Below, piece after piece: positions 35,464 to 39,024 of a DNA stretch of 64,000 bases. The DNA lies in contig NZ_CP084469.1 of assembly GCF_020405205.1 (NCBI RefSeq), positions 930,001 through 994,000 of the forward strand. Direction: 5' to 3'. Position numbers and translations under genes: made by a program. The DNA comes from Natrinema salinisoli. Lineage in GTDB: Archaea; Halobacteriota; Halobacteria; Halobacteriales; Natrialbaceae. Positions within the stretch are counted from its first letter, which is position 1. Every line of letters starts with the position of its first letter. The notes beneath the pieces were generated by a model that was not told where the DNA came from, made no database searches, and was given only the letters and a program-made list of their open reading frames with translations.

Positions 35464-35603
35464 TACGATAAATAGTAGGAGTCAATGATCGAGTGAGGAT
35501 CATCTAACAGGTTCGAAAGCGCGTCCGTTGACTCAGACCGTTACAGAGAGCAGTCGCGGCCTCCCTCTCAGACGAACAGCATTCTATCTGCGAATAAATT
35601 CCA

Positions 35604-35616
35604 ATAGATATAAGTT
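35604..35616 (+). promoter_or_regulatory. TATA box preceding the structured leader
   Basis: ATAGATATAAGTT centred near 35610. At the usual 26-27 base spacing, transcription would start near 35636, exactly where the predicted RNA fold begins. Confidence 0.5.
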
Positions 35617-35637
35617 TAACTTTCTCGTATGAATAGC

Positions 35638-35726
35638 TGGAAGTCAGCTCCAGCGGGGGCGTGCGTCGAAACGCCCCGGGTGCTGAGACACCCGAGACTG
35701 GCTTCCAACCGCAACGGCTCGAAGCC
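35638..35726 (+). ncRNA. Candidate structured leader or small RNA (three-way junction with alternative pairings)
   Basis: An outer helix P1 of ten pairs (35638-35647 with 35698-35707, one G-T wobble) encloses two hairpins: P2, seven pairs (35656-35662 with 35671-35677), and P3, five pairs (35678-35682 with 35689-35693). Two competing stems exist: GCTGGA/TCCAGC (35636-35641 with 35649-35654) and GGCTTC/GAAGCC (35700-35705 with 35721-35726), the latter ending at the ATG of the next gene. All are read directly from the sequence; function as a switch, small RNA or attenuator is inference. Confidence 0.5.
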
Positions 35727-35882
35727 ATGTTTCACTTACTCCCACCGAGACATAAACGTCTCGCACGACGACGGTATCGCAGACGAGTATCGGACGCAGT
35801 CGATCGACTATCGGCCGTCATCGAACGACGATCGCTCGAGTGGCACCGCCATCGACGGACACGGACTCGGAGCGATCGATGA
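35727..35882 (+). CDS. Possible small basic protein, 51 aa
   Basis: ATG 35727 directly follows the structured leader. The product (MFHLLPPRHKRLARRRYRRR...) is strongly basic, unusual for a haloarchaeal protein, with a possible amphipathic helix VSDAVDRLSAVIERRSLEW. Its TGA overlaps the ATG of the next gene (ATGA at 35879-35882), a typical coupling arrangement, which is the main reason to take it as real. It could bind nucleic acid. Arginine-rich frames also arise by chance in GC-rich DNA, so confidence is moderate. Confidence 0.45.
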   Translation: MFHLLPPRHKRLARRRYRRRVSDAVDRLSAVIERRSLEWHRHRRTRTRSDR

Positions 35883-36103
35883 GCGCCGATGACGAGCCGT
35901 CCCCCGACGACGAACTGACGATGGACGCCGATTCGATCGCCGCCGACAATTCGTCGCGACGGCGACAGCCGGTTCCGTGCCCGCGGTGTGACACACCGGT
36001 CGCGGTGGTCGTGAGCTACGGCCCGACGACCCACAGGGCCACGCCCTGTGGCTGTCCGGTCTCCGGCAGCCTGCTCGAGAAAACCGGGCCCGGCTCCGAC
36101 TAA
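35879..36103 (+). CDS. Small acidic zinc-ribbon protein, 74 aa
   Basis: The product starts MSADDEPSPDDELTMDADS, has a short basic patch (SRRRQPV) and ends with CPRCDTPVAVVVSYGPTTHRATPCGCPVSGS, where CPRC and CGC could bind zinc. The start overlaps the stop of the preceding small basic ORF by four bases, and a strong hairpin plus T run lies just after the stop. I do not recognise the family. Pairing of a very basic and a very acidic small protein in one operon may indicate that they interact (inference). Confidence 0.65.
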   Translation: MSADDEPSPDDELTMDADSIAADNSSRRRQPVPCPRCDTPVAVVVSYGPTTHRATPCGCPVSGSLLEKTGPGSD

Positions 36104-36113
36104 GGGAAGGGTT

Positions 36114-36138
36114 GGGGTGCGACGGACCCCGTTTTTTT
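36114..36138 (+). terminator. Hairpin plus T7 terminator
   Basis: GGGGT (36114-36118) pairs with ACCCC (36126-36130) across a seven-base loop, followed by G and seven T residues (36132-36138). It lies ten bases after the stop at 36103 and is the clearest terminator-like structure in the window. Confidence 0.7.
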
Positions 36139-38117: not shown

Positions 38118-38613
38118 CTTGATTCGCTGTTCGAGACGGTCGCGTATAACCCTTGTCAAGACGTGCTGGCGACTCGAGGCGCTGTTCTGGGCCAGTCTCT
38201 CATTCGTGACCGTTTCGTGCTGACAATGTGGTGGTATGGCTCTCGCTGGTACCGTCTCGATGGAAATGCTACTCAGCTATCATGCGGTACATTCGACAAT
38301 CGCCGTTCCGTCTGTCGCGAAACGAAGATATATCTGTGGATGGTGATGATCCGTTCGAAACGTACCGCGGGAGTGCCACCAGTGACGAGACGATGCTCGA
38401 GCCGATGCGCCGACTTCGTGGCGACTACCCCCGCGATGTCCGTATCGAGTGACCGACAGGAGGATGATCTCCGGTACGATCGTGTCGTGACCTGCAGCGA
38501 TATCGATGTGGCTGATACGTACCGGCCTGATCAGGTCCGAACTGTACGGGAACCCGAACGATCCCTGCCCACTCGAGCAATAGCTACAAACGACATCGGC
38601 GGGATGTCCGTAT
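38118..38613. other. Gene-free gap between divergent genes
   Basis: About 500 bases with lower GC than the flanks. An open frame at 38228-38452 (+) encodes 74 residues without a recognisable domain or promoter and I do not call it. The region must hold promoters for the DHH protein and the MaoC-like protein; a weak AT-rich GCAATAGCTA near 38577 may serve the latter. Confidence 0.45.
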
Positions 38614-39024
38614 ATGGACGTCTCACATCCGCCTGCGGAAGGCGACGAGTACGTTTTCGAACGAACCTTCGATCACGAGGACGTACGCGAGTTCGGCGAG
38701 CTGTCCGGCGACCAGCAGCCGATCCACACCGAGCCAGATGAGGCAGGTCGGCTGACCGTCCAAGGACTGCTCACCGCGACCCTGCCGACCAAGATCGGCG
38801 GCGATCTCAACTACATCGCTCGCAGTATGGAATTCGAGTTCCACCAGCCCGTTCACACCGGCGAGCGGATCTCCTGCACCTGTCGCCTCGAGTCGGTGAC
38901 CGAACGCGACGACTACTACGACGTGGAGTGCTCGGCGGTCTGTACGAACGAGGACGACGAGAACGTACTGCGAGCCGAAATCGACGGCCTCATTCCGAAA
39001 AGTGCGGTTCCCGACGACGAGTAG
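38614..39024 (+). CDS. MaoC-like hotdog-fold dehydratase
   Basis: A 136-residue single hotdog domain. GDEYVFERTFDHEDVREFGELSGDQQPIHTEPDEAG carries the Asp/His pair of (R)-specific enoyl-CoA hydratases in altered form (SGDQQPIHT), followed by QGLLTATLPTKIGGDLNYIARSMEFEFHQPVHTGERI, typical of MaoC-domain proteins. Such proteins hydrate trans-2-enoyl-CoA or serve as thioesterases. No acyl-CoA genes are adjacent. Length is at the short end of the family. The start ATG 38614 gives the usual N-terminus of the domain. Confidence 0.8.
   Translation: MDVSHPPAEGDEYVFERTFDHEDVREFGELSGDQQPIHTEPDEAGRLTVQGLLTATLPTKIGGDLNYIARSMEFEFHQPVHTGERISCTCRLESVTERDDYYDVECSAVCTNEDDENVLRAEIDGLIPKSAVPDDE

Follow-up and report, generated by a model that had tools for sequence, protein, structure and literature searches.

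A folded RNA leader of the haloarchaeon Natrinema salinisoli, located in the window (the whole 64,000-nucleotide stretch of DNA that was analysed), is probably a three-strand translational switch that controls the start codon of the following gene. The middle strand of this leader can apparently pair either with a strand at the 5' end of the transcript or with a strand that abuts the start codon. Both helices are conserved, co-varying alternatives, the start codon is a conserved target, and the two genes that follow overlap.

Architecture of the leader and its alternative helices

The unit that carries the leader is self-contained and lies on the plus strand between two minus-strand genes, one GH97-like and the other DHH (RecJ-like), both named by sequence inspection, in a 4.7 Mb genome of the family Natrialbaceae. 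It runs from a TATA box through the folded leader (35636-35726), ORF1 and ORF2 to a terminator-like stem with a T-run. The parts are as follows, with the basis for each in parentheses:

35606-35616, plus strand: TATA box of the unit's promoter, AGATATAAGTT (sequence)
35636-35654, plus strand: P0, a local hairpin of GCUGGA (35636-35641) with UCCAGC (35649-35654) that would occupy the 5' strand of P1 in the alternative fold (minimum free energy of a longer transcript)
35638-35650, plus strand: F, 5' strand of the outer helix P1 (P1 covariation)
35656-35677, plus strand: P2, hairpin with stem 35656-35662 x 35671-35677 and loop GCGUCGAA (covariation, loop tails)
35678-35693, plus strand: P3, hairpin GGGUG-CUGAGA-CACCC with stem 35678-35682 x 35689-35693, adjoining P2 without a gap (covariation, loop comparison)
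35694-35707, plus strand: M, putative switching strand, the 3' strand of P1, with F or T as partner (covariation, M:T test)
35721-35727, plus strand: T, putative sequestering strand GAAGCC(A), which adjoins the start codon and extends into it (M:T pairing test)
35727-35882, plus strand: ORF1, a 51-residue basic peptide (conserved start M...LLP(R/G)(H/Y)KR(L/P)ARR)
35746-35763, plus strand: P5, hairpin CGAGAC-AUAAAC-GUCUCG within ORF1 (73 copies compared)
35869-35872, plus strand: Shine-Dalgarno-like GGAG ahead of ORF2 (similar motif in copies)
35879-36103, plus strand: ORF2, a 74-residue acidic CPxCG zinc-finger protein, overlapping the ORF1 stop by 4 nt (ATGA)
36113-36138, plus strand: terminator-like stem and T-run at the unit's end (consensus scan only)

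The first-pass annotation of this DNA had described a ten-pair outer helix around two hairpins, and a letter-by-letter check found it exactly there: P1 joins 35638-35647 (UGGAAGUCAG) to 35698-35707 (CUGGCUUCCA) and is extended by CUC (35648-35650) with GAG (35694-35696). The fold is better than that of shuffled sequences, with a minimum free energy of -47 kcal/mol for 35636-35729 (z -3.7, 0 of 200 shuffles as good) and of -60.2 for 35636-35768 (z -4.8). Two competing stems had also been proposed and were located as P0 and a sequestering stem, in which UGGCUUC (35699-35705) pairs with GAAGCCA (35721-35727), including the A of the ATG at 35727. The modelled window transcript folds as P1 when it ends at 35729 and adopts the alternative fold, with the start codon buried, when it extends to 35768; on paper, the competition between the two folds is real. 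The TATA box is likewise present, and the start proposed near 35636, itself a prediction, is consistent with the homologues. A TATA-like match occurs in 67 of 79 of them, its centre a median of 28 nt (commonest 27) 5' of the outer helix, and the TATA-to-P1 distance lies between 25 and 36 nt in 67% of homologues versus 26% in shuffles, a spacing that agrees with the predicted transcript start.

The compensatory changes suggested as a check were sought with covariance models and are plentiful in P1 and P2, and also occur in P3 where that hairpin varies. In 81 aligned sequences, standard pairs fill 90.2% of the cells versus 76.2% after shuffling, the alignment being one fitted to the model, with two of the 81 rows representing weak antisense matches to loci already counted. 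Cells with changes on both sides number 227, against 62 in shuffles and 29-54 with the partner slid by one to three columns; the copies are related by descent, so that the shuffle controls overstate the number of independent events. Such double changes affect 20 of the 23 pairs overall, with 11 of 11 in P1 and 6 of 7 in P2. The P3 stem GGGUG/CACCC recurs in 59 of 79 copies around a free loop (55 distinct loops), and the 3' end of the P2 loop is mostly (N)GAA. The leader has a conserved structured core backed by covariation, which is one criterion by which riboswitches are recognized.

The further proposal that one competing stem ends at the ATG passed an independent test of the pairing between M and T. 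An M:T stem of at least five Watson-Crick pairs is present in 84% of the 79 copies with an assignable ATG, and in only 7% when T is swapped among copies with at least two differences in M. For the 42 copies with a minority M, their own T fits in 81% and the majority T in 5%. With G-U pairs allowed, stems of at least five pairs, usually touching the ATG, form in 85%, versus 26% with shuffled T and 18% in windows inside ORF1; L088, L219 and L233 are among the few copies that have no good M:T stem. The loss of fit on exchange of T indicates that F, M and T have changed together. Co-changed M/T strands include GGUCUUC/GAAGACC, GGGUUC/GAACCC and GGUUGUC/GACAACC, and complete F/M/T sets include GGAAGCC/GGCUUCC/GAAGCC, GGAAGAC/GGUCUUCC/GAAGACC, GGGAAC/GGGUUCCC/GAACCC and GAGACAA/GGUUGUCUC/GACAACC. 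The leader also has, as a riboswitch does, a mutually exclusive expression-platform helix over the start region.

The energy difference between the folds, E(B)-E(A), has a median of +2.1 kcal/mol, a value that rises to +9.0 on shuffling of the linker and T alone. In copies from outside the family, P1 is in most cases the more stable helix (median +3.7 kcal/mol); all these values come from the standard 37 °C model, not from molar KCl. A P0 stem of at least five pairs occurs in 24% of family copies versus 4% of shuffles, and outside the family in 10% versus 5%. This signal is weak and mainly confined to the family, and P0 was rejected as a general conserved part.

Copies, downstream genes and similar viral leaders

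A DNA search detected 19 copies in the window genome and matches in 45 of 100 relatives, while R1, a covariance model covering the whole element, identified 26 in the window genome and others in most of the sampled Natrialbaceae. R2, a model of the three-way junction only, from which strand T was excluded, matched 130 of 391 genomes of the class, belonging to 52 of 86 genera. In a phylum sample of 295 genomes, there was no covariance-model match outside the same order. An 18-letter pattern of the element, used on bacterial contigs as a negative control, gave chance matches at 40 loci with scores of at most 22.5 bits, compared to 54-76 bits for the 11 Natrialbaceae loci that the pattern retrieved; its named carriers include Natrialba, Natronorubrum, Halopiger, Halovivax, Halostagnicola and Natrarchaeobius.

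At the window site, the unit is present only in the host genome (G000) and a sister genome (G027). It is absent from this site in ten other Natrinema genomes that keep both neighbours, where the gap between them is 207-316 nt (647 in one, with repeats) versus 788 nt, and this differing occupancy among Natrinema indicates that units come and go. Homology around P1 spans about -39 to +530/590; a transposon check found no transposase within the unit, and the flanks are too diverged to define its ends. On a 10.8-kb plasmid of Halomarina sp. BCD28, a diverged leader (L177, 20.6 bits) lies directly 5' of a small ORF, which is followed by a site-specific integrase gene. Many leader units of the window genome have within 1 kb a dispersed repeat of 70-95 bp, about 80% identical and unlike the leader, for example L051 (-246 to -162 relative to P1), L053 (+855 to +949), L055, L056, L047, L117, L116 and L120. 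A shorter version of the leader, with GGGGUUCCC/GGGGUUCUC as M, has expanded in G389 and G227, related genomes of another family (L092, L104, L109, L111, L113; L099, L103, L108, L110, L112), where it precedes a tiny ORF, often with a CxxCG motif, and then a protein of about 180 residues. Several diverged copies, mostly from outside the Natrialbaceae (L221, L222, L225, L228, L214), have palindromic sequences around the TATA box and the start of transcription, such as CATAAGACACGTGTCTTATG in L221; their resemblance to operators would suggest a second, transcriptional layer of control.

On the chromosome of the window genome, leaders and zinc-finger genes correspond one to one: every leader of the 26 has one such gene behind it, and none of the 26 chromosomal members of the gene family lacks a leader; two weaker relatives on a second contig are without one. 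Every one of these leaders stands ahead of a small basic ORF that overlaps the acidic CPxCG zinc-finger gene. The 26-copy family, the overlapping gene pair as the presumed regulated unit and the continuation of the RNA into ORF1 as P5 all go beyond the first-pass annotation. The ORF1 family has a median net charge of +7. Of 61 copies, 42 have an ORF1/ORF2 overlap of 4 nt and 13 one of 8 nt, 55 in total; these figures are biased upward because the ORF2 start was chosen nearest the ORF1 stop, although the ATGA overlap is visible by eye; a Shine-Dalgarno-like motif lies within 15 nt before ORF2 in 54 of 61. Two reports describe translational coupling of overlapping gene pairs in Haloferax and other prokaryotes, archaea included (PMC6728339, PMC10666635).

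ORF2 contains CPRC...PCGC, and C-P-x-C ... P-C-G-C is invariant over 17 members; the definition of the CPxCG motif applied here comes from PMC2253796. Searches of Pfam and NCBIfam gave no match to ORF2, and comparison of the zinc-finger proteins with solved structures returned generic zinc-finger matches only. At L087, ORF1 continues in frame into the zinc-finger ORF, giving a single fusion protein of 107 residues. Plasmid records of relatives (L176, L178), whose gene table is incomplete, list no gene for leader plus ORF1 or for the zinc-finger ORF2. The leader/ORF1/ORF2 family may be largely invisible in databases.

Within ORF1, the third pair of P5 is G-C in 35 of 73 copies, A-U in 35 and another combination in 3, and the last pair is U-G in 38, C-G in 31 and U-A in 3. 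The swap of the third pair alters the encoded amino acids (G..P to R..L), and selection on the RNA is therefore probable, although the G-C and A-U types probably represent two old subfamilies rather than a large number of independent changes. Beyond the Natrialbaceae, the genes that follow the leader encode SWIM zinc-finger proteins, PadR-like regulators and other small proteins; inside the family, weak copies are followed by genes for PadR-like and DUF7344 proteins.

Homologues of the PadR-like proteins are encoded by the haloviruses SNJ2, BJ1, Humcor1, HHTV-2, phiH, phiCh1 and LSV-48N. The leader layout (junction, M, and T abutting the ATG) is visible in BJ1, Humcor1 and SNJ2 with weak model scores, at most 16.2 bits and none for SNJ2. 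The early lytic leader of phiH and phiCh1 resembles the chromosomal ones in having an M-like partner and a T-like strand right before the ATG of a PadR-like gene, and in phiH the mapped early lytic transcript start lies one base before the F-like strand. Between phiH (GAGCAGG/CCUGCUC) and phiCh1 (AGCAAGCG/CGCUUGCU), the differences are compensatory. An antisense RNA is also known in phiH. The enclosed region is different, however, and not detected by R2. Virus and chromosomal leaders share a kinship of layout, which is less than proven homology. A pattern scan of viral contigs gave 22 matches, mostly chance, with model scores of at most 23 bits, and was discarded.

The proposed switch and competing explanations

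In the mechanism that we favour, M (GGCUUCC in the window copy) would choose between two near-repeat partners, F at the transcript's 5' end and T directly before the start codon. Pairing with F would enclose P2 and P3 within the long outer helix P1 and leave the ORF1 start codon free (on), and pairing with T would form a hairpin that buries it (off). As transcription proceeds, M:F would form first, with the ORF1 start open, and M:T would close it later. ORF2 begins inside the last codons of ORF1, so that opening ORF1 might open ORF2 as well through termination-reinitiation. A shared cell factor or ligand would probably bind at the P3 stem, which is near-invariant, and at the conserved P2 loop, favouring P1 and setting the balance. 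We infer switching in the cell, the identity of the on state, the coupling of the two genes and a ligand or protein trigger, and with them that the leader regulates anything in the cell. Since P1 is usually more stable outside the family, the off state may need help or may form rarely there. A predicted 5'-UTR stem-loop is known to affect translation in Haloferax (PMC2636863).

Other functions can be envisaged for the same structures. The zinc finger or the basic peptide could hold one of the folds, making the leader a protein-binding autoregulatory site; this would suit the 26 to 26 correspondence with zinc-finger genes and the P3 stem, whose sequence is near-invariant even though its pairs could vary, suggesting sequence-specific recognition. 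We nevertheless regard it as unlikely, given that other copies precede unrelated proteins (SWIM, PadR-like, DUF7344) and no gene product is common to all. We attach similarly little weight to a role for the alternative fold in RNA processing or antisense control, of the kind reported for early transcripts of phiH. There, transcripts T1-T3 start at 38582, one base before the GAGCAGG that pairs with CCUGCUC, GAGC stands directly before the ATG, and the antisense transcript T(ant) starts at 38732, facing the leader; phiH and phiCh1 have no R2 match, however, and are linked to the chromosomal elements by layout only.

It is very improbable that a stable 5' structure merely protects the mRNA or fixes a low translation rate, with M:T a by-product of the duplication of F before the ATG. 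F and T are indeed near-repeats, as both pair with M, and P1 is usually the more stable helix outside the family, but T stays complementary to M across many M sequences and hugs the ATG, and the energy gap between the folds is far below that of linker-shuffled controls. The first-pass annotation had left the choice among a cis-regulatory switch, an attenuator and a small RNA, of which the evidence favours a switch at the start codon. A compact, stable fold would also be compatible with a transcription attenuator or a trans-acting small RNA, yet neither the alternative hairpin nor P5 is followed by a U-run, nearly all inspected copies precede an ORF, and the unit's only terminator-like site is 3' of ORF2, leaving these as the least credible of the readings considered. 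The translational switch remains our preferred interpretation.

Relation to known systems and implications

No Rfam 15 family matched the window at gathering thresholds, and a permissive search of 35560-36110 returned two matches at chance level (18.4 and 17.4 bits against cut-offs of 41 and 50). The element is undescribed in the openly accessible papers that were searched; the text of Weinberg 2010 on candidate RNAs names no haloarchaeal motif, and a transcriptome paper on salinity in Natrinema does not mention zinc-finger or small proteins. By these two measures, Rfam and the searchable papers, the RNA element was previously uncatalogued.

Like translational riboswitches, the leader combines mutually exclusive pairing of three strands, 5' of the coding region, with a conserved core of several helices and a start region that can be either open or buried. 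It differs from them in occluding the start codon itself, in preceding small regulators and not metabolic genes, and in having no known ligand or Rfam match. The element would work like a translational riboswitch, but we do not file it as one, ligand binding being a defining feature. The S15 ribosomal-protein leader of Halobacteria (PMC7247131) is also a haloarchaeal cis-acting leader with a multi-stem junction, but it precedes rpsO with recJ and rps3ae, whereas the leader described here precedes zinc-finger, SWIM or PadR-like genes. A ribosomal-protein leader was rejected on the basis of these downstream genes, DUF7344 included, and of the lack of a match to Rfam leader families, and the recJ-like neighbour was dismissed as coincidental, since the unit is missing there in other species. 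A parallel in gene arrangement is provided by brz-brb and bp4-OE2447F of Halobacterium salinarum, which combine a small basic ORF and an acidic CPxCG zinc finger in one transcript; OE2447F has a basic ORF upstream with a 7 bp overlap and a transcript start about 134 bp upstream. The accessible parts of these sources (PMC2253796, PMC3184054) describe no leader RNA, and the likeness noted here is one of layout.

A broader reading, which we put forward tentatively and consider somewhat short of probable, is that the leader represents an archaeal RNA switch present across the class, which arose in haloviruses and plasmids or was exchanged with them, and which gates the start codons of small nucleic-acid-binding regulators by exchange among three strands. 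In the Natrialbaceae, it would have been copied into dozens of dispersed, self-contained cassettes with one shared trigger. In Haloferax volcanii, 72% of protein-coding transcripts are leaderless and structured leaders were judged atypical for haloarchaeal translational control (PMC4983044). A covarying putative start-codon switch that 130 of 391 genomes in the class carry, one of them in 26 copies, argues against this picture. The leader has the look of a translation switch built into the mRNAs of small regulatory proteins, and its family provides one common entry point to a large group of tiny regulators, most of them unannotated. The virus copies hint at a connection with early gene control in viruses and, if the 26 copies share a trigger, one reporter could show what dozens of genes respond to.
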